Below are positions 1 to 58,920 of a DNA stretch of 64,000 nucleotides, piece after piece. Positions within the stretch are counted from its first letter, which is position 1, and each line of letters starts with the position of its first letter. Source of the stretch: Buxus sempervirens (taxonomy: Eukaryota; Streptophyta; Magnoliopsida; Buxales; Buxaceae). The stretch covers positions 40,117,439-40,181,438 of the forward strand of contig OX387191.1 of assembly GCA_947561395.2 (NCBI GenBank), given 5' to 3'. The translations under genes were made by a program, and so were the position numbers. The notes under the pieces were generated by a model that was not told where the DNA came from, did not search any database, and saw only the letters and a list, made by a program, of their open reading frames with translations.

Positions 1-156
1 GCCTACCTCAACAGAGCCCTCTCCAGAGCTCTCTCGAGAATCATCTAACGGCTCCGACAGGGTGGCACTAGAACTCGCCTCTGTCCGAGCCCGCGAAGTA
101 GAGGGCTGATCAGCAGGGTCAGCCTCCTCTCGAACACGGGAGCGACTCTTAGCCAT
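1..156 (-). CDS. Antisense plant-mobile-domain-type ORF, first exon (partial gene)
   Basis: An ATG at 154-156 on the minus strand opens a 50-codon exon (starting MAKSRSRVREEADPA) ending at position 7 before a GT donor (GAG|GTAGGC). The same 50-codon exon and donor occur at 43557-43706, where the gene continues into a plant-mobile-domain-like region. The exon is Ser/Arg/Glu-rich and predicts a disordered N terminus. The gene runs opposite to the retroelement that carries it. Being element-borne it is treated as part of the fossil; the rest lies outside the window. Confidence 0.6.
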   Translation of the reverse strand, partial: MAKSRSRVREEADPADQPSTSRARTEASSSATLSEPLDDSRESSGEGSVEVG

Positions 157-1621: not shown

Positions 1622-1702
1622 GTATATAACTTAAGGTATCCAACGAATTTTGTCAGATACAAAGAAAAGCTTGGATATCCGACTAAACATGTCGGATACC
1701 AA
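1622..1702 (-). promoter_or_regulatory. Palindrome module and TATA box of the Tat-2 antisense gene
   Basis: Read on the minus strand, two imperfect palindromes (GTATCCGAC...GTCGGATATC and GTATCTGAC...GTTGGATAC) are followed within about 10 bases by a TATA-like TTATATAC (1624-1631). Tat-1 shows the same order in front of its antisense gene at 41995-42075. I infer a promoter from position and conservation; no transcript evidence is available. Confidence 0.5.
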
Positions 1703-2227: not shown

Positions 2228-3743
2228 TGTAGACACCTCAAATTGCACAATAATTGGAAAAATTCATTCTTTCCTCTAAAACCAGCACAAAATTTGAGAA
2301 ATAAGCATTTTTTCTTGTATCCAACAACTCAGGTTGGATACAAGCGTATCCTTTTATATCCAACAGAAGTTGTCGGATACAAGCAGGTATTAATGTATCC
2401 GATGACATATGTCGGATACATATAGTTGCTTTTGTATTTGACCTGAGATGTCGGATACAAGCTTTTTGCTCAAAATTAGGGTTTTCCGAGAGTTTTCACT
2501 TTTACCATCATATCCTTCATTAAAGGAGTGGAAATCTCAGAAATAGCCTTAGGGTTAAGGTTGGTGGACTCTAGACATCATTTTGTGTCTACCATCATGC
2601 AAACCCTAACCCTAGCCTTTGCTTATAAATAGGAGGCTCCTCCTTAAGCAAAGGGCCATAAGTTGGAGATTGAAGAGCTCCGAGTGAAGAAGGGAACTGC
2701 TGCCGCACTGCTTCCAGAACCCAGGTAAGCCTAAAACCTTCTTTAAATTTTCTGTCTTACATTCTAGGTTTAGTTCTCTTCTTCAACCTTTCTGTAGAAT
2801 AAGGCCTAATCCGTGTGTATGCAAACCCTTCCTCTACTCAAAGTACCTCCAGTTGGTTTCATATTTTTTGACTCCATTTGTGTCGTGGGTAACAGATTTA
2901 CTCGGAACTGCTCAACAGCACTTTTCTGGGTTAATTTGTGATCCCCGGAGCCTGTTCCGGAGGTCACCCAAGGCACATCCAGATGAATTTTTATATGAGT
3001 CTTGTTTCATTTGAAATATGGCTCTACATACTTAATTCATGCCAAATTTCATAGATTTATATGTAGCCAATTTTTCTAAATGAATTTCCAAAATTGCCCA
3101 CTTGTCACTTTTAACTATCTTCAGCAGCAGATTTCAAAGGAGAATAACTCCTAGGATTTTAACCGGATTTAATTGAAAATTTGCATGAGTCTTCTATTTA
3201 TCATAATCTTTCAAATAAATTTGGTTTGATTCAATTTAAATTGGAGTTGAATGATTTCAAGACAAATGGCATTATCTTTTACCGAATTTTCCGGATTTGA
3301 CTCAACTTGGTTTTATGCAATTTTTGCTTTGATTTCCATCTATTGGTGATATTTCAGAAGTGATATTGACATAAAAGAGGATCTGCAATTCATTTGGATG
3401 TCTCATGTGAAGATATCACACATTTGTTTAATCCTTTTTCAAGGTTTTTGATTATTTTAGTAAGCTTTCTCATTTTTTTAGCATGAACAACACTTGGCAA
3501 CCACCTTGTGTGGGTGAATGGGGGTGCCTAATACCTTCCCTCATTCATAATCTAATCCCCTTACCCATTTCTGGATTTGATTTTCAAGTAGAGTTATTTT
3601 TACTCTAGTTTTTGCTTTTTTGCTTATTTTGAATCTTTTGGTGTCCATTCACACCTGAAATTGAATGGTGGCGACTCTTCCATTTTCGTTGAGCCTGTGT
3701 GTTGACGGAGGGGATCACCTCGGTGATTTTTTCATGTCTCACA
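2228..3743 (+). repeat. 3' LTR of Tat-2 (family LTR-A), short copy
   Basis: Begins TGTAGACACC and ends TGTCTCACA (TG...CA). U3 carries four palindromes (2317-2460) and a TATA box (about 2622-2631, CTTATAAATAGG). Downstream is a conserved leader (GAAGAGCTCCGAGTGAAG) and a donor-like CCAGGTAAGC. The copy is about 1.5 kb against about 2.3 kb for the copies at 11751 and 39180. Confidence 0.85.
2317..2631 (+). promoter_or_regulatory. LTR-A U3 palindrome array and TATA box
   Basis: Four palindromes lie in tandem at about 35-45-base spacing. The first has arms TATCCAAC/GTTGGATA around AACTCAG; later ones use TATCCGAT/GTCGGATA-type arms. About 160 bases downstream is the TATA box CTTATAAATAGG, preceded by a telo-box-like AAACCCTAA (2601-2609). 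The arrangement predicts sense transcription to the right. Confidence 0.6.
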
Positions 3744-11440: not shown

Positions 11441-11530
11441 CATGTAATGACCCAGACCCATACCCAGCAAGATATTGTCCGCTCTCGGCCCAATGGACCC
11501 TCATGGATTTGTTCTCAAGGGATAACACGA

Positions 11531-11592
11531 GAAAACTTCCTAGTGGTCACCCATCCTAGCATTGCTTTCATCCAAGCACGCTTAACTTGAGG
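11531..11592 (-). repeat. 5S-rRNA-like segment in the Cassandra 3' LTR
   Basis: The minus strand contains CTAGGATGGGTGACC and GTTAAGCGTGCTTGG, conserved parts of plant 5S rRNA including the internal pol III promoter region. Cassandra LTRs are known to carry this segment. It is not a 5S gene. Confidence 0.85.
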
Positions 11593-11750
11593 GCTCTAAG
11601 GGGATTTAGTCCTGTGTTATGCCTTAAGAGGCCTCTTGCTTTGTAAGGGATCACAATATTACTTATAGCATCCCCGAGCATTGTGGCATCCCAACCATAT
11701 GCACATTCTCGCCTGGTAGCTCGCCTAGTGAGATTACCCATTCACCCGCC

Positions 11751-14052
11751 TGTGAGACATGGAAAAATCACCGGAGTGACCTCCCTCCGTCAACACACGG
11801 GCTCGACGCAAAAGAGTGGGAGTCGCCACCATTCATTATTTTGAGGTGAGAATGGACACCAAAAGATCAAAAATAAGCAAAAAAGAGACAAAATAAACAT
11901 TCTAGGATAAAAATAACCCTACTTGAAAATCAAATCCAGAGATGGGTAAGGGGATTAGATTATGAACGGGGGAAGGTGTTAGGCACCCCCATTCACCCAC
12001 ACAAGGTGGTTGCCAAATGTTTATTCATGCTAAAAAAGAAAAGAGAAAGCTTGCTAAAAAATCATTAAAACTTGGAAAAAAAAAGGACACATGTATGATA
12101 TCTTCACATGAAAATCCCAATGCATTCCAGATCTTCTTTTATGTTGATATCACTTCTGGAATATCATAAAAAAGGATGGAAATCAAAGTAAAGGTTGCAC
12201 AAAAACCAAGTTGAATCAAATCCGGAAAATTCGGTGAAAAGTAATGCCATTTACCTTGAAATCATTCAAATACAATTTTAAATCAAATCAAACCAAATCC
12301 ATTTGAAAGATTATAGTAAATAAAAGATTCATGCCAAATTTCAAGTTGATCTGGTCGAAAACCTAGGAGTTATGCTCCTTTTAGGGTTGCTGTTGGGGAT
12401 TTTTAAAAGTGATGAGTGGGCAACTTTGGAAAATTGTCTAGAAAAATCCACTCCATAAATATCCGCGAAATTTGGTGTCAATCAAGTCTGTATGGCCATA
12501 TTTCAACAGAAACTAGCCTCATACAAAAACTCATTCGGATGTGCCTTGGGTGACTTCCCGAACAGGCCCCGAGGATCACAGATTGACCCAGAAAAGTGCT
12601 GTTGAGCAGTTCTGAGTAAATCTGCTCTCCACGACACAATTTAAATCCAAAAAATATGAAACCAATTGGATTTAAAAATAGACTCATACAGGAGTGCCTA
12701 AAAACAAAAATCATTCGAATCGGATTTAAAACGAACACATGGCGCTCTGTCGAAGTGACAAGTTCTGTATTTAAACCTGAACTGACTAGTCAACTTCGAC
12801 AGAGAGGTGTCAAAAATCTGCTTGATAGAAATTCATGATTTTTGGTAGGTATAAACTAGACAGCCTCAGCTTTCCCATGGTTCTAGAATCACTCCAAAAT
12901 TCATCCGGATGATGAAGTTATGAGTGTCCGAAGTTAGGGTACAGTTGCTGTCAAGTAAGCCCTAATCCGAAGAAAACCAAATCCGAAAATTGACAAAGTG
13001 TGTGCAAATTCGTGCAAGATGAACAAAAACCTTTAGAAATCATTTGAAAATATTCCAGAATTGATTGAGGCTATTTATTAGGGATTTATCACTATGAAAG
13101 CAACAAACCCCAAATATGAGCCTATCTTGCCAAGAGAATGATGTGTATGTGCAAGTGTGAAAAATTCATACAAGATCAATACAACAATATATCACGCATG
13201 CATATTCATCAAGACAAGGTTCTAAAACAGCCTAGGGTTCCGTTCCACTATCGTTTCCCTTTGTTCTCTCTCCCCGTTAAACACGGTTCTTCAAGATAAT
13301 CAAGGGTACTTTGATTATAGAACGGTTTTCAATCATTCAAAAGCCTTATGCTACATGGGTTCTAGCACTAGGGTCAATCCCCAGTCTCGTTTCTCCTAGA
13401 TCCGCCTTCACGTTTTACGGCTAGGGGAGTCTTGAGATACTTTGAGCCGGGGAAGGATTTCCATACACAAAGAAGGCTTTAATTTACTCTACAGAAAGGT
13501 AGAAGAATAGATCTAGATCTAAGAAATAAAATACAGAAAATAAAGGAGGGTTGAGGCTTACCAGTGGTTCTGGAAGCAATCCGGCAGCGGTTCCCTTCTT
13601 CACTCGGAGCTCTTCGATCTCCAAAAACTTGGCCATTTGCTTGAAGAAGAGCCTCCTATTTATAGGCAAAGGCTAAGGTCTTTGGTAGACACAACTTAAT
13701 GTCTAGCACCCTCCAACCTTAACCCTAGGGTTGTTTCCGAGATTTCCCCTCATTTAATGAGGGACAAGATGGTAACAAGTGATTTCTCTCGGAAAACCCT
13801 AATTTTGAGCAAAACTAACGTATCCGGCAACTCAGGCCGGATACACTAAGACTTTAATGTATCCGGTATATAATACCGGATACACTAAGACTGCTTTGTA
13901 TCCGGTACCTGAGACCGGATACGAAGGCAACTACTTGTATCCGGCCTGAGTTGCCGGATACAAGTAAAAAACTCATTTTCTCCAATTTTTGTGTTGGTTT
14001 TCAAGGAGATAATGATTTTTGATGATTATTTGTGCAATTTGGGGTGTCTACA
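11751..14052 (-). repeat. Solo LTR-A inserted in the Cassandra 3' LTR
   Basis: Plus-strand ends are TGTGAGACATGG and GGGTGTCTACA (2302 bp) with perfect 5-bp duplications CCGCC at 11746-11750 and 14053-14057. The TATA box (minus strand, about 13657-13665) and four palindromes (13820-13962) show minus orientation. There is no internal region, so it is a solo LTR left by recombination. Because Cassandra is split, this insertion is younger than the TRIM. Confidence 0.92.
13657..13962 (-). promoter_or_regulatory. LTR-A U3 palindrome array and TATA box
   Basis: Four palindromes have arms TATCCGGC/GCCGGATA or TATCCGGT/ACCGGATA with cores AACTCAG, ATATAAT, ACCTGAG and CTGAGTT, then the TATA sequence CCTATAAATAGG. 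The arms are G/C-shifted relative to the 2317-2460 copy and remain complementary. Confidence 0.6.
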
Positions 14053-14250
14053 CCGCCCACTCAGACAGCTACGATGCCACATACTCTCCTCCATGGGACA
14101 ATGCATCCTCGCGTTGGGCTGAATCCCCACACTTTCCGGTCAAGGCAAGTTCTGATACTATTTGTAACGACCCAGACCCATACCTAGCAAGATATTGTCC
14201 GCTTTGGGCCCAATGGGCCATCACGGATTTGTTCTCAAGGGATAATACGA

Positions 14251-14312
14251 GAAAACTTCCTAGTGGTCACCCATCCTAGCACTGCTCTCACCCGAGCACA
14301 CTTAACTTGAGG
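14251..14312 (-). repeat. 5S-rRNA-like segment in the Cassandra 5' LTR
   Basis: Same 5S-like block as at 11531-11592, with several transitions between the two; part of the 5' LTR. Confidence 0.85.
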
Positions 14313-15156
14313 GTTCCAAGGGGATTTAGTTCCGTGTTATGCCTTAAAAGGCCTCTTGCTTTGTAAGGGATCACAAGACTACTTACAGCATCCCTGAGCG
14401 TTGTGGGATCCCAACCATATGCACATCCTCACCTGGTAGCTCGCTCAGTGAGATTACCCATTCACCTGCCCACTTAGACAGCTAGGATGCCACATCACAT
14501 CTATAGGGGGCCACATACTGTTGTTGATACATTATCTAATCATGCACTTGATGCATTTTCTTATTATTGGTTTACGCGCCTGCACAACTGTATTTGTAGA
14601 TCCTTTTTGATGATCTCATGGGGAGGCCTACTTGTAGAACGACTTTCTAAATTAATGAATACTGCTACAAACCTTATATCAAGAAAAAAACAAAGAGTAA
14701 ATATGAGTAGGAGGGTCAGGTGTCTTAGTTTTAGATTGAGAAATTACAGTCAATATATGATTTCCTTGGTGAGAATACTGGTCTTATAGATTTGATTAAT
14801 CAATCTAGGGATTGTGTTCGAATAAAATTAACAGGTGAAACCAAAATTATGTATAGATGAGATTAGTTAATGATGCTTAATGCTTCTATTGGAAATTATC
14901 TTTTGATGATGAATGCATAGTAGAATTCTTTGAAATAAAATATTAATTGGAAGAATGATTTGTTTTCCTTAGTGTTGAGTTGCTTATGCATTGAGGTTAG
15001 AAGGGTAATAAATTATGAAATACAAAGTTAGCTCTTGAGATAAAGTGATTGAGGTAAAGATTCACGTTGTTAATATTATATAAAGTGGTGAATTATTATT
15101 TGTAATTCATTTATAATGAATAATTGAATGGGAGGTATTATTCGAATCAAAAAGGA

Positions 15157-24287: not shown

Positions 24288-25600
24288 ATGATTCAATTGT
24301 AAATCATGCAATAGTAGCGATAACATAGCAGTTCTGAATAATTCAGCGATAATCCATCAATCAATGTGAGATAAACCCAAGTAATACAACATGTAAAACA
24401 ATCTGTAGTATCGAATCAGAAAACGATAAGTCACAGCAGGACTCATGAAATAAGATTGCCTTTAACTAGGGTGATATCAATGTTCACTATGCCACCTCCT
24501 AGCTTATGTACGAAGCTGAGTATACGATCATCGTCTTATTGCGGGAGGACCCAACCAGTACAGAGAAGGATTGGCATGTACTATTCAGTCATAGTTCGAG
24601 TACACAATAAAATGAGGGAAAGCCACAGCCCACCAAGACAGAGAAGGCCTCATCGAGTATACGATGGAAACGCGTGCATGAACAAAGAATTACCACTAGC
24701 AAAGAACAATCCTTCCCACTATCTAGCTCCTAAATGGATCCATATAGAGCTATGCTCACTAGACTCTAAAACCAAACCAATCATGAAAATCTAGCAAGTA
24801 CAACTTATCTCAATCTCAATCATATCATCCCGAGTACACAAGACATCTCTGAGTACACAGATGCATAAACATCCCAAGTACATGGGGCATCCTCGAGTAC
24901 ACGGAGGTATAGCATCTACCACGTACATGGGCATATCAAACCATCTCTCCAAGTACATAGAGGAAAACCTAATCCAAAATCAATTCCAATTCTTTATTTA
25001 AGCACCCAAATTTTGATCAAACCAAAAAAGAAGAAAACAAAAAATGTGCTAAAAGACAGCAGAAAAGTTAAATCTTGAGGGGACAAAAGTTGACCTTTTA
25101 ATCAAGTGCAATTTGGCCACCATATTTCTTCTTAATGATTAGGAAATTCCGACACGAGTCTAACGCAACTGAGTTTGCTCAGATCGGGGTCTGGATGAAG
25201 AAGATATGGGCCATTCAAACTTAAGGGGAGCCGAAAGTTGACTTTTTGCTAAACCTCGAATCAATGGCTTAATCCTATCCCAATGGATAGAGGGCTTTGA
25301 TACGGTTCTAACGTAACTAAGTTTGCCAGAATCGGAGTTCAGATGAAGAAGATATGAGCAGTTGAAGTTTTCGGGCAGCAATGCCAGAAACTGCACACGT
25401 GGCAAAGGAACTGCACACGTGGCAAGAAGCGCAAATAAATATCTCAAGGGTGAATCCGTAAATATCCAAAATCTGTAAAATATCTCAGGGATTAAACCAA
25501 AATTGCGCAGGGGGCAATCTGCAGTTATCTCAAGTGTCAAATCGGTCAAATCCAGGGGCAATCTGTAAATATCAAAAATATTGGCAGAATAATCAGAAAT

Positions 25601-25852
25601 AAATTTCGGTTATACACAAATCGTGTATAACTGAAATTCAATTCCGGTTCATAAAGTGAAATAAAAAATTGCTCGACAGATTCTCTGATTACGTACCTGA
25701 CAGAAATTAATTGCTAATCAAGTGCAAAAGTAACCAAAATTTAATTTCGGTTACACATGGTTTATAGTATAACCGAAATTAAATTTCGGTTATACTATAT
25801 TTGCTTCATAACCAGAATTAAATTCCGGTTATTCAATTTTCGTCTATAAAAG
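25601..25852 (+). promoter_or_regulatory. LTR-B U3 palindromes (AATTTCGGTTA type) and TATA box
   Basis: Palindromes built on AATTTCGGTTATAC/GTATAACCGAAATT lie in tandem and end directly before the TATA box GTCTATAAAAGGG. In the two other LTR-B copies the same place holds TATCCGGC-type palindromes. Confidence 0.6.
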
Positions 25853-26811
25853 GGCTTCAGCAGCCCATTTGCAAGGGGTTAGCCATTTTTGCACTTAGAG
25901 CTCTCCCCTTTCTCCTCTGCCTTGCTCGTCCCCCTTCCTCACACCCCCTCACTCACTCCCAAGCCTTGAAACCCCTTCCACAAGACATCCAAACCATTCT
26001 CACTCCTTCCTCCCTCACTTTTACTCAAGAAGGAGGCTTGGAGGAGCTCTTTGGCGCCAAAAGGAGGTACCCTAGCCACTGTTTTGCCGTCAAGGGAGGT
26101 CAACACCACCCAAGGAGGCTTTCCAACCCCAAGGTAAGTTTCCCCACTGTGTTTTATTATACATATATAAAAATGGGAATGATCAGAGCATGTGGCTATA
26201 TTTTCCTTTTGGTTACTTTATGATCTTCCCTTTTTGAGCATGTTTTCTCTTCATCCCCCACTTCTTTCCTCTTTGTTCTTCATGAGAATATGATCCCATG
26301 GTAATGGGAAGGGCCGAGATTCGAAAAGAAGGGATGAGAGTCCATGGAAGCATTTTTTTTGAGTCCACACTCAATTGTTCTACAAATGGATGGTCATTCG
26401 AAAGGGGAGCATGTTCCCCTCCTCCCTTTAAATCCAATGTATCCCCTTAAAACCCCCATTATCCCTTCTTTATTTGCATGCTAATTTAGGTTATGATTGG
26501 TTTTTTTTACATACTTGCTATGCCATGAATCATGCATGCCTAGGATTAGAAATCTCACATGAATACCTTGAAAAGCATGATCCTTACACCCCATTTTCCC
26601 CCCATGGAATGTCGGCTACTATTTTTTAGAGGTCCTTGCATGATCCCCTTCCCCTTGGTTCCTAAAAACCCCAAAAAAGTGGCCTAAAGGGGCTTCTCCC
26701 CTTATCCTCAAACCACTGTGGGCCCACCTAGTGGCCCATACAGCTTCCCAGCATCCCTGGAAGTCCAAGAGGATCGATCCCCCCTCAAAAACCCAAAAAA
26801 AGTGTTTTCTG

Positions 26812-26876
26812 TGTTTGCCCGAAAACACAGTTCGGGCAAACATGGTTTCATGCATAACCGAAATCCTATTTCGGTT
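26812..26876 (+). repeat. Second palindrome pair of this LTR-B, downstream of TATA
   Basis: TGTTTGCCCGAA/TTCGGGCAAACA (perfect 12-base arms, 7-base loop) and TAACCGAAAT/ATTTCGGTTA (10-base arms, 3-base loop). About 1 kb downstream of the TATA box. Confidence 0.75.
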
Positions 26877-27939
26877 ACACTCTGTAAATACCAAAAAACC
26901 AGTTTTCAGCTCCTTAGCCCATTTCCAATCTCTTTTGTGAATAAACCAATTAACCCAATAGGGTTTCGGGTCAACCCGAGACCTAGCATGGGCCTTGGAC
27001 CCAACGGGTCCAGTTTTGAGAACCGTGGGCCTTCCAACGGGGCCCACCCAGTCCAACTAGCTCATTTGAATTAAAAAGAAAGATAATTAAATAAACCCAA
27101 TGGGCCACACCTTTGAGGCCCACCAAAAGCCCAATTTGGAAACATGCTGGATAGGCTAGGTGGTTTGGCCGTGACTCGGGCTTGGGCCTATCGGGCCCAG
27201 CTCCCTTCAAGGGAAGCCCACAAAACCAAAGGACAGGGTCCAAAACCCTAATCCACTATTGCCTTGGGCTTTCAAGCCCAAACCTAGGCAATGGGCCCCA
27301 AGCCCATGCCTAGCCCACTTTGGCTCAAATAAATGAAGATAAATCAAAATCACTTGGCAACCACTGTGGGGCCCACCGGATGGGCCCACAAACCATCTCC
27401 AGGCCCACTTCTGCATGTGAATTACTTAATCCCCAACTTGAACTTTAAATAAAATCAATAAAACCAACCAGAACCGAAAGGGGTTATTCAACGTAACCCC
27501 AAACGGGACTTGGGCTTTCACTAAAGCCCAAATTGGCATCCTGTGGGCCTTCCAACAAGGCCCACACACCAGACCCAGATCACTAGGAATGAAAAGATAA
27601 AATCAAATCAAAGGGACTCACACCACTCAAGTGGTCCCACTAGACTCAATAAAATGTGCATGTTGGCTTAGGAACCGGGTGAGATAGACCAAAATTGACT
27701 CAAACCAGGAAACCCATGGGACCAGTCATTCGACGGGGCAGACCGAGGTGTCTACGGACTTCCCCGGATCGTAACTGAGACCCTACCTCAGGATCTCAAG
27801 CCCCAGACCGCCTACTAGACAAACCTAGGCACCCAGGTGTTTGCCTGCACCCCATCAGGCAGTGGCGACTCCAACCCTCCCATTTTACCCTTCAGGAGGC
27901 TCGCGCCCACGCTGTGCGATTTCCCATGCGCACACTTCA

Positions 27940-36000: not shown

Positions 36001-36029
36001 CATTATGCTGGAAAAACTCAACCCAAAGA

Positions 36030-36240
36030 TCGTAAATGGCCGCTAGACTCGGGGGCTTCTCATAATATCACTTCAAAACTCTCTAATTTATCCATCCATT
36101 CTAAGTATGATGGAACTGATGAGGTGGTGATTGGTGACGGCTCAGGTTTATCTGTCTCTCACATTGGCTCTCTTAATCTTTCAGTTCCTAAACGTACCTT
36201 TCAATTACCAGACACACTTTGTGTTCCTCATATTTAAAAA
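36030..36240 (+). pseudogene. Copia-2 protease
   Basis: WPLDSGASHNITSKLSNL is the Copia aspartic-protease active-site block (D-S-G-A), followed by VVIGDGSGLSVSHIGS and the closing LCVPHI. It sits directly after the gag knuckle in the polyprotein order. Confidence 0.85.
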
Positions 36241-36252
36241 AACCTTATTTAT

Positions 36253-37383: not shown

Positions 37384-37389
37384 CCTGGA

Positions 37390-39179: not shown

Positions 39180-41475
39180 CGTGAGACATGCAAAAATCAC
39201 CGATGTGATCCCCTCAGTTAACACACGGGCTCAACAAAAATGTGGGAGTCGCCACCATTCAAATTTAGGGTGTGAACAGACACCAAAAGATTAAAAATAA
39301 GCAAAAGACAAATCTAGAGCAAAAATAACTCTACTTGAAAATCAAATCCAGAGATGGGTAAGGGGATTAGATTATGAATGGGGGAAGGTGTTAGGCACCC
39401 CCATTCACCCACATAAGGTGGTTGCCAAGTGTTGTTCATGATAAAAAATGAGAAAGCTTGCTAAAACAATTAAAAACCTTGAAAATAGATTCAACAAATG
39501 TGTGATATCTTCACATGAGAAATCCAAATGGATTCCAGATCCTCTTTTATGTCAATATCACTTCTGGAATATCACCAATAGATAGAAATCAAAGCAAAAA
39601 TTGCATAAAACCAAGTTGAGTCAAATCCGGAAAATTCGGTAAAAGATAGTACCATTTGTATTAAAATCATTCAAATCCCATTTAAATTGAATCAAACCAA
39701 ATCCATTTGAAAGATTATGATAAATAAGAGACTCATGCAAAATTTCAATTAAATCCGGTTGAAATCCTAGGAGTTGTGCTTCTTTAAAATCTGCTGCTGG
39801 AGATAATTAAAAGTGACAAGTGGGCAAGTTTGGAAAATCATTTAGACAAATTGGCTCCATATAAATCCATGAAATTTGGTGTGAATGAAGTATGTATGGT
39901 CATCTTTCAGATGAAACTAGCCTTATACAAATATTCATCCGTATGTGCCATGGGTGACCTCACAAACAGGCCCCGAGGATCACAGATTAACCCAAAAAGG
40001 TGCTGTTGAGCAGCTTTGAGTAAATCAGTCACCCACGACATAAATTAAATTAAAAAATTATGAAACCAACTGGATTTAAAAATATACTCATAAAGGAGTG
40101 CCCAGAAACAAAAATCACTTGAATCGGATTTAAAACGAGCAGATGGCGCCCATTCAAAGTGATAGGTTCAACAGTTTGACTTGAACTGACCTATCAACTT
40201 CGACAGAATGGTGTCAAAAATCCACTGCATAAAAATTGATGAAATTTTGTAGGCATAAACTAGACAGCCTCACCTTTCCCATGGCTTTAGAATCACTCCA
40301 AAATTCATCTGGACGATGAAGTTTTGAGTGTCCGAAGTTGGGCTACAGCTGCTGTCCAGTTTTAGGCGTTTTAAAGAAAATCAACTCAAAACAGGGATAA
40401 GGAGTGTGTGATCCGTGCAAGATGAATCAAAATCATTTGAAAACCATAAAAATATATCCCAGAATTATTTGGGGCTATTTATTCCAGATATATCACAAGG
40501 AATGCAATAAATTCGAAATATAAGCTGATTCCGACAAAAATAGGTGCTATGTGTGTATGTGTAAAAATCATTTCTTCAATAACACAGCAACATATATCAT
40601 GCATTCATATCAATCAAATGGGATTCTAGAACATCCTAGGGTTCCGTTCCATTCTCGTTTCCCTTAGTTCTCTCTCCCCGTTTAACGGTTCTTCAAGATA
40701 ATCTTGGGGTACTTTGAATATGAAACGGTTTTCATAGAATCAAAAGGCTTATTCAACAAGGTTCTAACACTAGGATCAATCCTCAGTCTCGTTTTCCCTA
40801 GATCCCGCTTTCACGTTTTACGGCTAGGGGGAGTCTCGAGGTACTTTGAGTAGAGGAAGGGTTTTCATACACACAGATTAGGCCTTATTCTACAGAAAGG
40901 TAGAAGAAGAGAACTAGACCTAGAATGTAAAGACAGAAAATTTAAAGAAGGGTTTAGGCTTACCTGGGTGTTTGGAAGCAATGCGGCAGCGGTTCCCTTC
41001 TTCACTCGGAGCTCTTCAATCTCCAACTTATGGCCATTTGCTTAAGGAGGAGCCTCCTATTTATAGGCAAAGGCTAGGGTTAGGGTTTGCATGATGGTAG
41101 ACACAAAAGAATGTCTAGAGCCTACCAACCTTAACCCTAAGGCTATTTTCGAGATTTCCACCCCTTTAATGAAGGATATGATGGTAAAAAGTGAAAACTC
41201 TCGGAAAACCCTAATTTTGAGCAAAAAACATGTATCCGACATATCAGGTCGGATACAAAAGCACCTATATGTATCCGACATATGTCGTTGGATACATTAA
41301 TAGCTACTTATATCCGACAATTTATGTCGGATATAAAGAGGAATGCTTGTATCCGACCTGAGTTGTCGGATACAAGAAGAAATGCATATTTCTCAAATTC
41401 TGTGTTGGTTTCAAAGGAGATAATGATTTTTGCCAATTATTCATTATTTTTACTGTGCAATTTGGGGTGTCTACA
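39180..41475 (-). repeat. 3' LTR of Tat-1 (family LTR-A), full length
   Basis: Plus-strand ends CGTGAGACATGC (consensus TGTGAGACAT) and GGGTGTCTACA, 2296 bp. TATA box on the minus strand at 41057-41066 (GCCTATAAATAGG); palindromes 41231-41373; telo-box-like AAACCCTAA on the minus strand near 41083-41091. The left edge abuts Copia-2, so the presumed 5-bp duplication would be GAGTC (39175-39179); its partner is outside the window. Confidence 0.9.
41057..41373 (-). promoter_or_regulatory. LTR-A U3 palindrome array and TATA box (Tat-1)
   Basis: Four palindromes of the TATCCGAC...GTCGGATA type, two with loops CTGAGTT or ATATCAG, upstream of GCCTATAAATAGG. It would drive Tat-1 sense transcription (minus strand) from the equivalent 5' LTR. 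Confidence 0.6.
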
Positions 41476-41488: not shown

Positions 41489-41994
41489 GCGGGAGTTGCA
41501 AAGCAATGAGATGCAAAGATTTAGACAAGCCCAAATTGCACTCCCTTAACCATGATTTGCTTGGTTCAATTCAATTTTGTAAAATAATTTTTTTGTGTGA
41601 AGATTTGCCAAAAAGCCCTAACTTTAAGGGGGCATCTCTCCAAGATGTCTTAAATTCCACTGAGCTCTCGTGGCTATGAAGTGGATTTTAAGCCCCCAAA
41701 AATAAGATTTTTGAAAACTGATCTTTTTTTCGAACCAAGTTAAAAATTGAATGAATATTTTCCTCTTGACCAGCACATTTCACCAAGTTGTCCTAAATCT
41801 CACTAAGCTCTCGTGGCTGTGAAGTGGATTTTAAGCCAAAATAAGTTTTTTTTTTCGTGAAAATAGCAGACTTTGTTGCACATTTTTTCCTTTTTCTTTT
41901 TTTTCTTGCTTTTTCATTTTTTTTCTTTTTCTCCTTTTTTCTCTTTTTTATTTTCTTTTTCTCTTTTTTCTTTTCTTTTTCCTGTTTTTCTTTT
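41489..41994 (-). other. Tat-1 3' noncoding region with direct repeats and purine tract
   Basis: Holds the two ~55-base repeats (about 41641-41695 and 41784-41837) and a long pyrimidine stretch on the plus strand (about 41885-41995; purine on the element strand). No coding sequence. Confidence 0.6.
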
Positions 41995-42075
41995 GTATCC
42001 GACGTAGATCGTCGGATAAGAAAGGGCTCCTGTGTATCCGACATGTTCTGTCGGATACATTAGTTCATATAAGTC
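41995..42075 (+). promoter_or_regulatory. Promoter-like module of the antisense PMD-type gene
   Basis: Two palindromes (GTATCCGAC...GTCGGATA and GTATCCGAC...GTCGGATAC) are followed by TTCATATAAGTC (TATA-like, 42066-42072) on the plus strand, away from the LTR. Tat-2 keeps the same arrangement (1622-1702). Confidence 0.5.
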
Positions 42076-43556: not shown

Positions 43557-45554
43557 ATGGCTAGGAGTCGTTCTCGCGTTCGAGAGGAGGCTGACCCTGC
43601 TAATCAGCCCTCCACTTCGCGGGCTCGGAAAGAGGTGAGTTCTAGTGCCACCCTGTCGGAGCCGTTAGATGATTCCAGAGAGAGCTCTGGAGAGGGCTCT
43701 GCTGAGGTAGGTTTCCCAATTCTTTCTTTCTCTTCTTGCTTCCCTTGAAACCGACTTCGCTTATTCATTTCTATTTTTAGCCTGTTGTTGCTTCTGCTCG
43801 AGGTCAGGGTAGAGGCCGAGAGAGAGGCGGAGGTAGAGTTGGTGAGAGGGGCCAAGGCCGAGCCACAGAGAGAGGAGCTGAGGGCAGGTCGGGGCTTCAG
43901 GCCAGGAGGGTGGTGCTGCAGCTTTCCGCCTAGGGATCTCTATGGAGCTGAGAGCGTCTGTTCATGATACAGAGCTCTTTAGTGGTTTGGATAGCCACCC
44001 CTCCATGTGCATCCGGGTCGATGTGCCTCTTCAGTATCCTCCTTCTCATCTATGAGGCAGTTGGGGGAGATTCAGTGAGCTGGCGTAGATGCTTTCTCCG
44101 GCACTCAGGCGTGAGTTCGGCAGGTGCCGCCTGGATTATTTTCTCAGCATCCCTTTGTTCCGAGCCGACCATCCCCTTATCTTTGCCATGATGGAGCGGT
44201 ATTTTCCGGAGACGCAGTCATTCCATCTGCCGGACGTGGAGCTGGGGATCCACCCTTCCGATTTTGTGATGATCACAGGCATTCCTCTGATGGGGCGGAC
44301 TATCATTTTGGATCAGCCTTCGGCAGCGGACATCGGCCTTCTCTTGGGATATCAAGACCTGCCTGATGCTACTTGGGATGGGCGGAGCGGTCGTATCTCC
44401 ATTAGCTGGCTGCAGGAGAGCCTTACTAGACACTATGAGGGGAGATACGCGACCATTACCATGGAGGATGCAGCCTTTGCACCCATCTTCCGGCATGTGT
44501 TTCTGCTGATGCTCGAGAGTTGCTTCCTCCAGGAGGACACGACCAGTGTTAGTCCTCTCTTTTTGGATGCTTTGAGAGATCTCCACCAGACCCCGCCAGT
44601 TAGCATGAGGTCGGCTCATATATGGGACTATCTTGGCTGGATTGTGCCGGGTAGTTCGAGGCCTGGCTGCTCCGAGAGGTGATGGAGTTAGCTGCTGGTT
44701 CTTCTGGTAGATCCTGCAGATATTAAATTCATCTGTCTTGTCTTATTCCTTAGGCTTCACCTTCTTTTATCCTTGACTGATTTCTCTTTTGCCAGGTGTT
44801 TATGTACACCTACATGACTTACTTCCGCCCATCTTCCGTGCCTGGTGTTGCTGAGTTCCCTGTTGCCCTGTGGTGGTCCGTCCAGGTCAAAGATGTAGAC
44901 AAGAGTTAGCCTCGTACTGCTCGGGTTCACTTGGACCGTGCCCGATAATCTGATGTAAAATTCTTGATCCCTTTCTCTTTTATCTCTTCCCCTGTACCTT
45001 GTGTAAGCACCTTATTTTTGCACCCCTGGAAATGCTGAAAATGAAAACCCTGGCAGAAAGTCAAACCTTGAGGGGACAAAAATTGACTTTTTGATCCAGT
45101 GATAATTGGCCACCTTGCATTATCTCAATGGATAGAGAATCCCAACATGAGTCCAACGCAACTGAGTTTGCTGGAATCGGAGTCCGGATGAAGGTTCTGC
45201 AGGCCGGTCAAACTTAAAGAGGGGCCGAAAATTGACTTTTTATCGAACCCCGTGCCAGGTGCTTAGCCCTATATCATTGGATAGAGGGCTCTGATACGAG
45301 TCCAACGCAATTGAGTTTGCTCAAATCGGAGTTCAGATGAAGGAGATATGAGCTGTCGAAGTTTTTGAGCAGAAAAACCAGAAACTGCACACGTGGCAGC
45401 CAACGCAGCAAAATATCTCAGGGACCAAGTCTAAAATATCAAAAAGTTGCGAAATATCTTAGGGACTAAACCAAAATTTGCAGGGGGCAATCCGTAAATG
45501 TTCAAAAGTGTCAAATCGGTCAAGTTGAGGGGCAAATCCATAATTTTTTGATTT

Positions 45555-45820
45555 GTATCTGATGAAATATGCCGGATACACATGCCTCAGTGTGTGACAG
45601 ACATTATTCATCGGATACAAGGAGATTTTCCAGCGAGATTCGCGCCGATCCCCCGACAAATTCGCGGCGCCATTAATTTTTCGAATAATTGTGTTTTGTA
45701 TCCGGCATTGAATGTCGGATACAAACAATCTATAGTGTATCCGGCATTGAAGGCCGGATACACATAAGGGCATGTGTATTCGGCCTGAGTTGCCGGATAC
45801 ATTAAGTTTGCCTATAAAAG
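45555..45820 (+). promoter_or_regulatory. LTR-B U3 palindrome array and TATA box
   Basis: Palindromes with arms TATCCGGC/GCCGGATA and variants, the last with core CTGAGTT, end about 12 bases before CCTATAAAAGG. Confidence 0.6.
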
Positions 45821-46880: not shown

Positions 46881-46988
46881 TGTTGATCCGGCAACTCAGG
46901 TCGGATCAACAAAGCCCCATTCGTAGCCGGCAAAAGATGCCGGATACACAGAGCCCTGTGTGTAACCGGCATCTTAGGCCGGCTACAC
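46881..46988 (+). repeat. Second palindrome cluster of LTR-B, downstream of TATA
   Basis: TGTTGATCCG/CGGATCAACA around GCAACTCAGGT, then GTAGCCGGC...GCCGGATAC and GTGTAACCGGC...GCCGGCTACAC. Arms differ from those upstream but remain complementary. Confidence 0.7.
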
Positions 46989-49670: not shown

Positions 49671-49671
49671 T

Positions 49672-49832
49672 GTATCCGATATATCAGATCGGATACATTA
49701 AAACCTCTTTGTATCCAATATAATTTGTCGGATACATTAACATCCCCTTGTATCCGACATTTTTCATCAGATAAGAATAAAACCTTTTGTATCCGATCTG
49801 ATATGTCGGATACATTAAAACATTCTATAAAA
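49672..49832 (+). promoter_or_regulatory. Palindrome array and TATA box of the DUF7745-type antisense gene
   Basis: Four palindromes (TATCCGAT...ATCGGATA, TATCCAAT...GTCGGATA, TATCCGAC...ATCAGATA, TATCCGAT...GTCGGATA) end about 10 bases before TTCTATAAAAGC (49824-49832). The ATG at 49943 lies about 110 bases downstream. This is the LTR U3 layout, in a non-LTR position. Confidence 0.6.
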
Positions 49833-49942
49833 GCAATGGGCCTCGGGATTTGAGTCATTTTCACGACTTTTTGAGTTTAGAAAACCCCTTTTTCGCCTTT
49901 TTCTTCCTTCCATTGATTCTTAGCTTGCTCCCATCATCCCCA

Positions 49943-51627
49943 ATGGATTCCGGATCATCTTCTGCCCCATTGTTGTCTGTCCACGTAGCCTCCCCTGCAA
50001 AACAACCTCTTAGATCAAAACCCCATAACCTCACTAGGTATAGCCCTGTAGATTCATTCTACACTAGGTGGGTTAACTCTATGACTCTTGATGAAGAGAG
50101 GAAATGGGATTCCACCCATCTAGGCCATGTTCTGCTTATCCCAAAGATTCCCTTCAAGTGGGAGATTATTGAAGCTATGATTGGTCACTGGGTACCTGAC
50201 CTAAACCTTTTCCGTTTTGGAAACCATGAGATGAGCCGAACCATTGAAGAGGTTGAAACTATCCTGGGCTTGAGGTTTGCAGAAAAGGTAGTGAACCCAC
50301 CCCTTAGGCCCAGTTACAAGAAAGAGGCCTCTACTTTCCTGGGTATAAGGAAGAAGGATTTAGGGGATTCTGACACCCTTTTGACTTTGTCCAAGTCTTT
50401 TCTGACTGAGAAGCTCTTGAGGGGGGAGAACAAGGAAGCCAAGTTCAATGCCTTAACCTTGATAGTGGTTAACCAACTGTTCTTTCCACGGGATGACGAT
50501 GAGGTAGACTTGGCCCTCATCTCAGTTGTATGCCAGGTTAGGGAGCAGGAGAGATTGGCCCCTATGATTTTGGGAGAGATGTACCAGGCTTTGACTGATT
50601 GCTATTATAGGAAGAAGAAGCGCTTCCTATCATGTACCCCTATCCTGCAGGTAAACTTTTTTCTTCTTTTTTTTCTTTTTGCTTTTTTTTCTTTTTCTTT
50701 ACAATATACTGAAATATCCCTCCTCCTTTGCAGCTTTGGCTACTTGACCACCTGAGTCAGATTGAAGAGATCAATCGACACTTCTTCCCAAGCTTGAAAA
50801 TTCCCATCTTGATGAACAACCGGGGGTGTCCTGATATTCTAGGGGGTAAACAGGGCTGGTTTACTTTCTTAGCTACACTCCAGGATGATCAGGTGAGGTG
50901 GCCTGGTACTTATCAGCCCAATGCAGAGACTGTGATCAGCTTCCGAGACCGCAACTTTTTGGTTCTGGCTGGCTTGAGACATGCGGTGCTTTACCTCCCT
51001 TTGCGGGTTCTTCGCCAGTTTAGAGCAACCCAGGGGATTATAATCCCAAGTGGATATGAGGACCATCTTGGGCCACTTTCACCAGCCACCATGAAGCTGA
51101 ATGCTTGGTTGATGAGGGAGTGGTCCTATGTTCGTTTTATGCGGAGCCCAGTCTTCTCAGTGTCCCATGTAAAGGATTATCTCTTCTGGATCAAGGAGCA
51201 GATACAGAGTCAGGCCCCAGTACCCGAAGATCCTCCTGCAGTCTTGGCTCCTACTTATGAAGACATTCTGGAGTCTTAGAGAGCCTCTCACAAGCGACTT
51301 CAGCAGATATGGGTACGAGAGACCAAGGAGCTCAGGATACGGGGTGTTTATCTGGAGAGGCAGCTTGAGGAGCAGATATCTCGCCGTACAGCTATGGAGG
51401 AGAAACTGGAGGAGCAGAGGCAGGCCCGCCGCTTTGAGGTCCAGATGATACGGTAGAAGTACCAGGATGCTTTAGCTAGCCTTAGGAGCATGCGGATTAG
51501 ATAGACCCTTTCAGATGAGGTCATTTCCTTCTTGGGTGATCCCGCTGCAGAAGGGGCTTCTGGAGTCATTGCAACTCAGGCAGCTCGGATTCGGGAGCTT
51601 GAGGAGCAGCTAGGAGACAGAGACTAG
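49943..51627 (+). pseudogene. Antisense DUF7745-like gene of Tat-1 (two exons, coiled-coil tail)
   Basis: Starts MDSGSSSAPLLSVHVASPAK. Blocks WEIIEAMIGHWVPDLNLFRF, GNHEMSRTIEEVETILGLRF and ALTLIVVNQLFFPRDDDEVD are followed by intron 50651-50733 (CAG|GTAAAC ... TTTGCAG), then LWLLDHLSQIEEINRHFFPS, PDILGGKQGWFTFLATLQ and PLRVLRQFRATQGIIIPSGY. The order (GHWDP-like motif, T.EEY-like helix, WL..H segment, aromatic W...L block) is what I associate with plant DUF7745 proteins, often found in retroelements. The C-terminal part is an Arg/Glu-rich coiled coil. The first exon is fully open. A few breaks lie in the tail. Role unknown. Confidence 0.6.
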
Positions 51628-53710: not shown

Positions 53711-53857
53711 TGTGTATCCGGTAACTCAGGCCGGATACACAGGGTCTACAGGTGATCCGGCCTAGGCAGCCGGATACACAGGGGCCATAGGTTATCCGGC
53801 CTTAGCTGCCGGATATACCTAGGCCACAGGTGATCCGGCCTGAGTTGTCGGATCACC
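53711..53857 (-). repeat. Second palindrome cluster of LTR-B, downstream of TATA
   Basis: Four palindromes: GTGTATCCGG...CCGGATACAC, GTGATCCGGCC...GCCGGATAC, TTATCCGGC...GCCGGATAT and GGTGATCCG...CGGATCACC. The flanking arm bases differ from one palindrome to the next, with matching changes on the other arm in the first and last. Confidence 0.75.
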
Positions 53858-54875: not shown

Positions 54876-55141
54876 TATTTATAAGCAACTTAATGTATCC
54901 GGCAACTCATGCCGGATACACTAAGCCCCTCCTTATCCGGCCTTCAAGGTCGGATACACTGGCTTCTCTTTGTATCCGGCAACTCAGACCGGATACATGA
55001 CTTAATCATTTCAAAATTTAATGCCGCCGCGAAGTTGTCGGGCAATCGGCGCGAATCTCGCGCGAATATCTTTATGTATCCGGCCTTCAAGTCCGGATAT
55101 GAAGGAGAGGCAGTGACTCCGGCATATATGACCGGATACAA
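54876..55141 (-). promoter_or_regulatory. LTR-B U3 palindrome array and TATA box
   Basis: Minus-strand palindromes TATCCGGC...GCCGGATA and variants, the last ending within about 10 bases of CTTATAAATACC. Confidence 0.6.
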
Positions 55142-55869: not shown

Positions 55870-57250
55870 ATGAGTGCACCCCCTGACAGGACCTTCTTGA
55901 TGCCATACGGCCCTTCCCAATTTGGCTTGAACTTACCACGAGGATCTTCCAAAAATGGTAAGATTTTCTTTAGCACCAAGTTTCCTTCTTGGAAAGTTCT
56001 GGGCTTCACCTTCTTATTATAGGCCCGGGCCATTCTCCTCTGGTACAATTGCCCATGACAAAGCCCTTTCAATCGTTTCTCTTCTATCAGGTTGAGTTGA
56101 TCATGTCTTGACTATATCCATTCGGCTTCTTCCAATTTAGCTTCCATGAGCACTCTAAGTGATGGGATTTCTACTTCCACTGGCAAGACTGATTCCATCC
56201 TATATATTAGGGAATACGGGGTTGCCCCAATTGAAGTCTAGATTGAGGTTCTGTAGGCATGTAGAGCAAGCGGTAGCATTTCATGCCAATCCCTGTAACT
56301 CACTACCATTTTCTGAATGATTTTCTTTATATTCTTATTTGCTGCTTCCACTGCCCCATTCATCTTTCGCCTGTACAGAGCAGACTTGTGATGGGTAATC
56401 TGAAACTACTCACACATCTTCTTTATGTCCTTGTTCTTAATATTTGAAGCATTGTCTGATACTATGGCACTTGGCAGTCCATAGCGACAAATAATATTGT
56501 GCTTCAAAAATTTAATGACATGGTTGCTTGTGATATTCACATATGAAGCTGCCTCTACCCACTTGGTAAAATAGTCAATCGCTGCCAGGATGAATCTGTG
56601 CCCATTCGATGCCTTAGGGGAAATCATACCGATGACATCTATGCCCCACATAGAAAAGGGTCATGGTGATGTCATGCTGTGCAACTCACTTGGAGGTGCC
56701 TGCTTGTTATCTGCATAGATTTGACATTGATGACACCTCCTGACATGTATACAGCAATCACGCTCCATGGTCGACTAGTAGTATCCCAACCACAGGATCT
56801 TCTTTGCTAGCATGTGTCCATTTATATGGGGTCCACAAACTCCTCCATGTACAGTCTCAATCAGCATTTCCGACTCAGCCTTAGCAACACATCTGAGCAG
56901 AATATCGTTATGTGACATCTTGTACAAATTTCCACCACTTAGCAGGAACTGACCAGCCAATCTATGTATTGGCTTGTTCTTAGTAGAAGTGGCATTTTCT
57001 GGCAAACTCCGATTGTTCAAAAACTTTTTGATGTCTTGAAACCATGGTGCTTCTTCTTCGAGTGCTTCCTCTAGAACGAGACAGTAAGCCGGTTCATCTC
57101 TGACCTCAATTTCCAGTGGTTTGATGTCTACCCCTTCTGGCATGTTGACCATTGAAGCCAATGTTGCTAGAGCATCCGCGAACTGATTCTTGGCCCTTGG
57201 CATATAATTGAAGGAAATTCGAGTAAAATTTGTGCTTATTTCTTCCAAAT
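55870..57250 (-). pseudogene. Tat-1 integrase
   Basis: Right to left: the zinc domain (VHGGVCGPHINGHMLAKKIL then a CHQCQ block), catalytic core GIDVIGMISPKASNGHRFIL, AAIDYFTKWVEA and AIVSDNASNIKN, then the C-terminal YNKKVKPRTFQEGNLVLKKI and KPNWEGPYGIKKVLSGGAL. No chromodomain is seen, as usual for Tat. The end is displaced by LTR-B and resumes at 52665. Fossil, several breaks. Confidence 0.88.
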
Positions 57251-57251
57251 A

Positions 57252-57608
57252 CTAGTGATAGGGGATCAATTTGTGATCCTTGGTTTTCCATTCACCAGTT
57301 GTTTGGAAGATGATAAGACTCGAATCCCCGTATACGTCAAGTTCCTCCACTTTATGATCTATGGCGGCTTGCAACCCAATTATGCATGCTTCGTACTCCG
57401 TGATATTATTGGTGCACTGGAATCTCAACTTCACTGTGATCGGGATGTGTGAACTATCTGGTTTGACCAAGACTGCCCCTATTCCATTTCCATTCATGTT
57501 GGTGGCCCCATCGAAGAACATCTGCCAAGAACTCTCACTTTTCTCCTCCTCAGTAAACAGAATTGCCTCATCTGGAAAGTTGGTCTTCAAAGGTTGGTAT
57601 TCTAGCAA
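57252..57608 (-). pseudogene. Tat-1 second (archaeal-type) RNase H
   Basis: WQMFFDGATNMNGNGIGAVL, FQCTNNITEYEACIIGLQAA and LDVYGDSSLIIFQTTGEW contain the D..E..D pattern of an active-type RNase H. It lies between the Gypsy RNase H and integrase. A second RNase H here is a known hallmark of the Tat/Ogre group. Confidence 0.85.
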
Positions 57609-57698
57609 AGGATGTGCAGCCAGGTGATCAGCTATGGCTTGACCCTTGATCGCCTTCTGAGTAATGTACGTGAGTTCAAACTCGGATAGTAGTAGTTG

Positions 57699-58920
57699 CT
57701 ACTTTGCCGTTCTGCCAGTCAGTGCCAGTTTCTCAAATAAATATTTCAAAGGGTCCATCCGGGATATCAATAGTGTGGAGTGACTAAGGAAGTAATGCCT
57801 TAGCCTCTGAGTTGCCAACACTAGAGCACAACAAGTCTTTTCCAATGGTGAGTACTTGGCTTCATATTCTATGAATTTTTTACTCAGATAGTAAATTGCC
57901 CTTTCTTTTCTACCAGTCTCGTCATGCTGCCCCAAGACACATCCCATCGACGTTTCCAACACTGACAAGTACAGGATTAGTGGTCTTCTTGGAGTTGGTG
58001 GCACTAGCACAGGCGGGTTCAATAAATACTCCTTGATTGTATCAAAGGCCTGCTGGCAATCGTCATTCCAGACCATCGGGTTATCCTTCCTCAGAAGTTT
58101 GAAAATTGGTTCACAGATAGCAGTGAGTTGTGTTATGAACCGGCTTATGTACTGAATTCTTCTGAGAAAACCACGAACCTCCTTCTCTGTTTTGGGTGAT
58201 GGCATCTCAATTATGACCTTGGCTTTAGCCCGGTCGATCTCAATCCCTCTTCTGCTCACGATAAATCCCAGCAACTTCCCTGATGTAGCCCCAAAGACGC
58301 ATTTTGCCGGGTTAAGCCGTAGACTGTACTTCTTGAGCCGATCAAATACTTTCTTTAGATTGATCAAGTGGTCCTCTTCTTTGCATGATTTGGCAATCAT
58401 GTCGTCTACATAGACCTCCATCTCCTTGTGGGTCATGTCATGGAATAGTGCTGTCATGGCCCGCTGGTATGTTGCTCCGGCATTCTTGAGCCCAAATGGC
58501 ATGACCGTGTAGTGGAATGTGCCCCAAGGTGTGATGAACGTTGTTTTCTCTTGATCCTCTTTAGCCATCTTGATCTGATTGTATCCCGAGAAACCATCCA
58601 TGAATGAGAATAGGCTATGTACCGTAGTATTATCGACCAGGATGTCGATGCGTGGAAACGGAAAATCATCCTTTGGGCTTGCCTTGTTCAAATCTTTATA
58701 GTCCACGCACATTCTGACTTTCCCGTCCTTCTTTGGTACTTGCACTATGTTTGCGAGCCACTCGGGGTACGTAGAGACTGCCAAAAATCCAGCTTGAAAT
58801 TGCTTGACCACTTCGTCCTTGACCTTTAGGGTTCATTCAGGCTTCAATCTTCTCAGCTTCTGCTTGATTGGCTTAACCCCTGGCAAAATTGGCAACTTGT
58901 GCACCACCATGTAAGTGTCC
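57699..58920 (-). pseudogene. Tat-1 reverse transcriptase and Gypsy RNase H
   Basis: WLANIVQVPKKDGKVRMCVD, FPRIDILVDNTTVHSLFSFM, DGFSGYNQIKMAKEDQEKTT, VMPFGLKNAGATYQRAMTAL and the catalytic MEVYVDDMIAKS are textbook Ogre/Tat RT. The RNase H follows (LETSMGCVLGQHDETGRKER, YYLSKKFIEYEAKYSPLEKT). A frame of about 370 codons is open here, the longest intact RT block in the window. A short N-terminal part (LRRLKPEW) lies just to the right. Confidence 0.92.

Follow-up and report, generated by a model that had tools for sequence, protein, structure and literature searches.

Many palindromic boxes of repeated motifs have been described upstream of the TATA box in the LTRs of Sireviruses (Ty1/copia), with further palindrome clusters 5' of their additional env-like gene (Bousios et al. 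2010, PMC2829016). Short tandem non-coding motifs that change together between related families have been described as the targets of VANC in VANDAL elements (PMC5735166). In the Ty3/gypsy lineage, the Tat clade is distinguished by a second RNase H placed between RNase H and integrase, and 57% of Ogre elements have been reported to carry a plant mobile domain (PMD) (PMC6317226). What the PMD does in gypsy elements has been stated as unknown (PMC9289625, PMC5418596), and regulatory roles for antisense extra ORFs have been put forward as proposals (PMC7264820, PMC11963269). A promoter motif has also been tied to PMD-domain proteins, namely the 'DOWN' motif, which occurs in genes that depend on MAIN/MAIL1/PP7L (PMC7156037, PMC9899485).

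The palindrome arrays of the window (the whole 64-kb stretch of DNA analysed here, with three copies of each of the LTR families LTR-A and LTR-B) resemble the Sirevirus boxes in lying upstream of an LTR TATA motif and of an additional gene, and in having CCG/CGG in the arms with diverged flanks (PMC2829016). They differ in having a CCG-n11-CGG core, against CGG-CCG with a short or no gap in Sireviruses (PMC2829016), a 39-bp step and a PMD gene as the accessory gene, and in that LTR-B2, the sole LTR-A or LTR-B element with pol in the window, is a Ty3/gypsy rather than a Ty1/copia element and carries two RNase H domains. The palindromic-box layout of the copia Sireviruses recurs here in gypsy elements. 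The earlier note on this DNA knew of no named LTR motif like these palindromes, but with Sirevirus boxes upstream of the TATA and 5' of the env-like gene (PMC2829016) the layout is already known in kind, and the interesting parts are the link to PMD genes and a switch of arms in LTR-B3.

The likeness to VANC targets lies in the tandem, non-coding, co-changing motifs; VANDAL is a DNA transposon for which VANC binding was measured, whereas the present arrays are known from sequence alone, and the main text of the VANC paper is without the word 'palindrome' (PMC5735166). As in Ogre/Tat elements with PMD extra ORFs, the second RNase H of LTR-B2 lies between RNase H and integrase; the accessible account of Ogre/Tat is without a promoter array, which is seen here (PMC6317226). 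The 'DOWN' motif has a different sequence and belongs to host genes rather than retrotransposons (PMC7156037, PMC9899485). Among the top-ranked papers in searches of the open-access literature, and in the portions of them consulted, palindrome arrays were not described for Ogre/Tat LTRs or PMD promoters.

The classification of LTR-B2 was based on its pol region.

LTR-B2 pol, 56412..58811, minus strand: RT and RNase H at 57699-58811, second RNase H at 57255-57698, integrase core at 56412-56660

Profile matches were to RVT_1 and RT_RNaseH, to RVT_3/RNase_H and to rve, all on the minus strand, and the order of RT, RNase H, second RNase H and integrase fits the Tat clade, Ogre/Retand type. The LTR-B ends are followed by TGGCGACTCC, a candidate Ogre-type PBS, and no TSD could be assigned. 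Also in the LTR-B2 element, a 786-residue open frame (60076-62436, minus strand) had no significant Pfam match, and the G-patch-like stretch after it (59622-60116) scored just under the cut-off. A pol region for LTR-A was not found within the 64-kb window.

The palindromes were placed in a frame of 27 bp, consisting of two 10-bp arms flanking a 7-bp loop, with the next unit starting 39 bp on. The LTR-A palindromes are of the type TGTATCCGRY-n7-RYCGGATACA, and the U3 arrays are as follows.

LTR-A1 U3 array, 2316..2459, plus strand: four palindromes in 39-bp steps
LTR-A2 U3 array, 13819..13962, minus strand: four palindromes, inner bases of G type (the starting observation)
LTR-A3 U3 array, 41231..41374, minus strand: four palindromes

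As the earlier note had reported, all three LTR-A copies have four palindromes upstream of the TATA motif, and the four arm pairs that it quoted were all found. All 12 LTR-A U3 units fit the 27-bp frame, and in the three copies each unit starts exactly 39 bp from the next. From the centre of one half-site (TATCC or GGATA) to that of the other is 18 bp within a unit and 21 bp where the 12-bp spacer lies between them. The recurrent loops that had been described were also recovered, in LTR sense AACTCAG in 3/12 units and CTGAGTT or a variant differing at one or two bases in another 3/12. The TATA motif lies 164, 154 and 165 bp downstream of the last unit in LTR-A1, LTR-A2 and LTR-A3 respectively.

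When the inner gap was set at 11 bp and no more than 4/16 mismatches were tolerated, the window gave 41 hits, against 1–7 for each of five first-order Markov sequences, in which five gap lengths were permitted rather than the one used for the window. Inverted repeats with perfect arms of at least 8 bases and loops of at most 12 numbered 101 in the window, AT runs and CACTA-like repeats included, and 12–19 in the five Markov sequences. The palindrome arrays are real, non-random and promoter-linked. Pure chance as their origin, and CACTA-type subterminal repeats or insertion hot spots as their identity, were rejected by reasoning.

The earlier note had tied the palindromes to LTR-A, and their distribution proved to be wider, with 42 scored units in 14 clusters across the window. 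These clusters are located in the LTR-A U3 regions (three), within LTR-A elements (two), at far, U3 and downstream sites of LTR-B, and ahead of the ORF that lies at 49.9 kb. Arms match at 6 to 10 of 10 positions per scored unit, and neighbouring scored units are separated by 39 bp in 27/28 steps and by 38 bp in the other. Of the unit starts, 53830 and 26814 were taken from the inverted-repeat scan and 25807 was placed by hand on the 39-bp lattice. Two weak LTR-B3 far units exist beyond the 42; they were left out of the scored set and included in a comparison of 44 units in 15 clusters. The motif GTATCCG, by which the arrays themselves were defined, occurred 45 times in the 1,392 bp of 12 arrays (those of LTR-B3 left out) against four times in the rest of the window. 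The three LTR-B relatives share roughly 71–79% DNA identity in their matching pieces, and their extents and arrays are listed below.

LTR-B1, about 45002-48035, plus strand: from DNA matches, ends approximate
LTR-B1 far array, 45554..45619, plus strand: two weaker palindromes, arms matching at 7 and 6 of 10 positions
LTR-B1 U3 array, 45697..45801, plus strand: three palindromes, TATAAA at 45813, 11 bp on
LTR-B1 downstream array, 46883..46987, plus strand: three palindromes, about 1.1 kb past the TATA
LTR-B2, about 55869-52713, minus strand: from DNA matches, ends approximate
LTR-B2 far array, 55075..55140, minus strand: two palindromes, arms matching at 7/10 positions each
LTR-B2 U3 array, 54894..54997, minus strand: three palindromes with one 38-bp step, TATAAA 10 bp on
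LTR-B2 downstream array, 53713..53856, minus strand: four palindromes
LTR-B3, about 25000-27861, plus strand: from DNA matches, ends approximate
LTR-B3 far array, 25588..25652, plus strand: two weak switched TAACCGAA-type units, 38 bp apart
LTR-B3 U3 array, 25729..25833, plus strand: three TAACCGAA-type palindromes in the register of LTR-B1, TATAAA 11 bp on
LTR-B3 downstream array, 26814..26879, plus strand: two palindromes with switched arms

The first loop of the LTR-B3 downstream array is AACACAG, where LTR-B1 and LTR-B2 have AACTCAG. By eye, no TATA motif was seen adjoining the downstream arrays of the three LTR-B copies; they lie about 1.0–1.1 kb past the LTR TATA and are not accounted for by the reading proposed below.

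The remaining arrays lie within the LTR-A elements and ahead of a second PMD gene near 49 kb, and are given here with the neighbouring TATA-like motifs, located by pattern alone, and coding sequences.

LTR-A1 element internal array, 1635..1700, minus strand: two palindromes, on the strand of an antisense accessory gene, TTATATAC 5 bp on
LTR-A1 counterpart of the LTR-A3 PMD gene, first coding stretch, 1..156, minus strand: remainder beyond the window
LTR-A3 element internal array, 41994..42059, plus strand: two palindromes, same strand as the antisense PMD gene
TATA-like motif ATATAAG, 42067..42073, plus strand: 7 bp past the LTR-A3 internal array
PMD gene antisense to LTR-A3, 43557..44679, plus strand: predicted exon limits, putative link to the promoter
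Array before the second PMD gene, 49671..49814, plus strand: four palindromes
TATAAA, 49826..49831, plus strand: 11 bp past the 49-kb array
PMD/DUF7745 gene, 49943..51276, plus strand: ATG at 49943, predicted splice between two frames

The distance from the last palindrome to TATAAA is thus closely similar at LTR-B1, LTR-B2, LTR-B3 and the 49-kb PMD gene (11, 10, 11 and 11 bp), and the TATA-like motifs of the LTR-A3 (ATATAAG) and LTR-A1 (TTATATAC) internal arrays lie at 7 and 5 bp. The unit end reads GGATACATTA in 4/6 of these close promoters and GGATACCTTA at the LTR-A1 internal array; LTR-B3 differs. Degenerate palindrome-like units were observed past the TATA-like motif of the LTR-A internal arrays at 1560-1586 and 42110-42136, their centres 75–77 bp from the nearest array unit.

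Both PMD genes pass the gathering score of Pfam PF10536 (34.9 bits). For the gene antisense to LTR-A3 the domain was matched at 44089-44679 (E 2.3e-9, 37.3 bits). For the 49-kb gene the frame at 49850-50755 matched DUF7745 (E 6.8e-18) and PMD (E 5.7e-10, 39.3 bits), and the frame at 50713-51276 matched DUF7745 weakly and below cut-off (E 0.02). The two PMDs are strongly diverged, with 26% identity in a forced alignment and no significant BLAST match between them (E 6.0). Each follows an internal array on the same strand, and the LTR-A1 internal array leads to a homologous first coding stretch: that of the LTR-A3 PMD gene, from 43557, has 90% identity over 52 aa to the window at 156-1 on the minus strand. 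The 49-kb ATG lies about 110 bp past its TATAAA. In LTR-A the PMD coding start lies about 1.5 kb past the TATA-like motif, so the link between promoter and gene rests on a predicted leader intron. We infer that the TATA-like motifs are the promoters of the downstream PMD genes. The PMD genes are located near LTR-B, without assignment to LTR-B.

No significant relative of 49943-50752 was found among PDB sequences (best E 0.21), and NCBIfam profiles gave no match to four proteins. A search of viral contigs for PMD relatives matched three stretches by pattern, none of which was confirmed. The AlphaFold single-sequence model of 49943-50644 was too poor for use (mean pLDDT 43.5).

The earlier note had reported that the arms change between copies and yet stay complementary. 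The paired changes are real, and the covariation runs mainly across whole arrays, less within single palindromes. Between LTR-A2 and LTR-A3 (four units) seven positions had changed on both arms, 7/7 being paired in both copies, and three on one arm; between LTR-B1 and LTR-B3 (five units) the corresponding figures were 17, with 15/17 paired in both copies, and seven; the p-values for both-arm against one-arm changes (Fisher, 1.5e-5 for LTR-A2 and LTR-A3; 3.5e-8 for LTR-B1 and LTR-B3) presume independent positions, which array-wide change violates. The LTR-B comparisons used three U3 and two downstream units per copy, with the far and further downstream units left out. LTR-B2 and LTR-B3 differed by 19 both-arm changes (15/19 paired in both copies) and seven one-arm changes, and LTR-A1 and LTR-A2 by six and seven. 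Two of the six comparisons gave little support for pairing, namely LTR-A1 with LTR-A3 (one both-arm and six one-arm changes) and LTR-B1 with LTR-B2 (four, of which 1/4 was paired in both copies, and seven).

The observed arm match of 0.864 fell to 0.738 when right arms were shuffled over all units (observed value reached by 0/5000) and to 0.836 when they were shuffled within clusters (reached by 30/5000). The within-cluster shuffle keeps most of the arm match, so the covariation signal is largely array-wide. Position 9 is A in 32/32 half-sites of the LTR-A1, LTR-A3, internal and 49-kb arrays, and G in 8/8 half-sites of LTR-A2, in 15/20 of the far and U3 arrays of LTR-B1 and LTR-B2 and in 12/14 of their downstream arrays. 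Position 10 is C in 15/20 half-sites of the same far and U3 arrays and A in 10/10 scored half-sites of LTR-B3. The LTR-B3 clusters carry TAACCGAA where their relatives have TATCCGGC, with both arms switched together, and the switched half-sites of LTR-B3 relative to LTR-B1 and LTR-B2 would provide a natural specificity swap.

Similarity across the 44 units in 15 clusters was compared by part of the unit. Within arrays, identity was 0.84 for outer arms, 0.78 for inner bases, 0.40 for loops and 0.44 for spacers; between arrays it was 0.77 for outer arms, 0.47 for inner bases and 0.40 for loops. LTR-A2 aligned to LTR-A1 and LTR-A3 without an indel over 144 bp, with outer-arm identities of 0.88 and 0.92 and spacer identities of 0.44 and 0.47. 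Outer arms were kept no better than loops between LTR-B1 and LTR-B3 (0.67 each) and between LTR-A1 and LTR-A3 (0.89 each). Duplication or conversion of whole units would drag loops and spacers along, so selection by a common reader of the half-sites is the simpler account. Arm mismatches on the sense strand (n=57) comprised 20 G-T, 20 A-C and 17 others, with no wobble excess; 40/57 are of the kinds left by transitions, which would be expected from the decay of methylated sites.

We propose, with a probability of roughly 0.7, that these are phased arrays of dimer sites controlling the LTR promoters and the internal PMD promoter via one regulator. A single DNA-binding protein, sequence-specific and dimeric (or multimeric), would bind the palindromes, whose alternating half-sites make up a phased array. 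Such an array would control the retrotransposon promoters from upstream and would also precede the accessory PMD gene's internal promoter, placing LTR transcription and PMD expression under a common regulator, either a host factor or the PMD protein. Arms that change together without loops and spacers, and the lack of G-U bias, favour dimer sites over RNA hairpins and whole-unit duplication. The regular spacing, the spacer length kept without its sequence, the near-fixed TATA distance and the co-change of half-sites were counted for the proposal. Counted against it were the LTR-A U3 arrays, which lie 154–165 bp rather than 5–11 bp from the TATA, the LTR-B downstream arrays, the predicted leader intron needed to link promoter and PMD gene in LTR-A, the two copy comparisons in which outer arms were kept no better than loops, the basis in a single 64-kb window, and the 39-bp step, which does not equal an integer number of helical turns. 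With its row of sites at both the LTRs and the apparent PMD promoters, the system has the look of a docking platform used in common by one regulator; protein binding, its positive or negative effect and co-regulation at the arrays are predictions from the DNA sequence. A cis-element common to LTRs and PMD genes would give the question of PMD function a concrete DNA target.

The reader may be a host transcription factor, with the sites recruited by the elements and the PMD gene a passenger on the same promoter module. Heat-shock elements recruited by ONSEN offer an analogy. A half-site common to two LTR families and two diverged PMD genes is most simply read by one host protein, and repeated, sometimes palindromic boxes are known as LTR cis-elements (PMC2829016, PMC10760457). 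The presence of TAACCGAA for TATCCGGC in LTR-B3 of the same genome would, however, imply a further host paralogue or else another kind of reader, and we hold this identity tentatively, at a little under even odds.

Alternatively, the element may encode the reader itself, as its PMD protein alone or in a complex, which would exert self-specific control of the LTR and of its own promoter by VANC-like logic; we consider this rather unlikely. Both internal arrays with a gene body in the window precede PMD genes, and the concerted half-site switch of LTR-B3 resembles motifs evolving with VANC (PMC5735166). Against this, one site type is common to two highly diverged PMDs, no PMD match was obtained in the frames scanned from pol to the 3' LTR in LTR-B2, and the inner bases of the 49-kb PMD promoter are of A type whereas the neighbouring LTR-B1 is mostly of G type. 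The published MORC1 DOWN motif, CATGCAGTTT, is also unlike the array arms. It is unlikely that PMD proteins read the palindromes in a self-specific circuit in which protein and sites co-evolve and families differ in code (TATCCGRC against TAACCGAA). If such a circuit were true, retrotransposon regulators would be the ancestors, or evolutionary relatives, of the host PMD silencing factors MAIN and MAIL1.

The earlier note had suggested selection on the palindrome itself, as a dimer-binding site or a DNA/RNA hairpin; the dimer site fits, and the hairpin is less supported, with no wobble excess and six clusters 5–11 bp from TATA-like motifs. Loop 1 is the reverse complement of loop 4 at 6/7 positions in LTR-A1, 7/7 in LTR-A2, 5/7 in LTR-A3, 7/7 in the 49-kb array and 7/7 in the LTR-B2 downstream array (4, 2, 4, 3 and 0 matches for loop 2 against loop 3), so each whole four-unit array forms an inverted repeat. 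This symmetry may mean that the loop holds a second, oriented site, or that the array has a role at the RNA level. The predicted fold of the LTR-A2 array has an energy of -92.6 kcal/mol (z -15.2; reached by 0/200 shuffles) and runs end to end, unit 1 being paired along unit 4. Arrays acting as RNA hairpins, whether they yield small RNAs, are targeted by them or form a structural part of the genomic RNA, would agree with this fold and with the small RNAs drawn to Sirevirus palindrome clusters (PMC10760457, citing Bousios 2016). Every palindrome folds well, however, so the strong fold does not discriminate; arm mismatches show no G-U excess, and arrays upstream of the PMD-gene TATA-like motifs would fall outside those messages. 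We regard RNA hairpins as quite improbable. That no site is selected at all, the arms being kept matched by unit duplication, gene conversion or template switching, appears very improbable. In its favour, inner bases are alike array-wide, as homogenisation gives, and quasi-palindrome correction provides a mutational route. Against it, loops at 0.40 both within and between arrays and spacers at 0.44 would confine the tracts to about 10 bp or less, and the near-fixed TATA distance at six promoters is left without explanation.

Other sequence collections and features of the window were also surveyed. A single-unit scan of viral contigs gave five stretches, roughly the chance number by our own estimate, and a two-unit scan gave no matches there; the one two-unit match in genome contigs, on a Mycolicibacterium chromosome, was taken as chance. 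Rfam at gathering scores gave no match in the whole window, including a stretch near 14190-14300 that resembles Cassandra/5S-like sequence. The LTR-A2 copy is bracketed by 308-bp direct repeats of 91% identity (11443-11750 and 14163-14470). Ty1/copia gag, integrase and reverse transcriptase domains occur in three successive open frames at 35530-38286 (plus strand), which stop shortly before the LTR-A3 end at about 39181. A likely non-autonomous CACTA-type element at 18133-19999 has the ends CACTACAA and TTGTAGTG and many interior CCGCCGCT/AGCGGCGG repeats, several of them as palindromes, and another CACTACAA occurs at 22774. At the window end, 63322-64000 is a tandem repeat whose units recur about every 77 bp.
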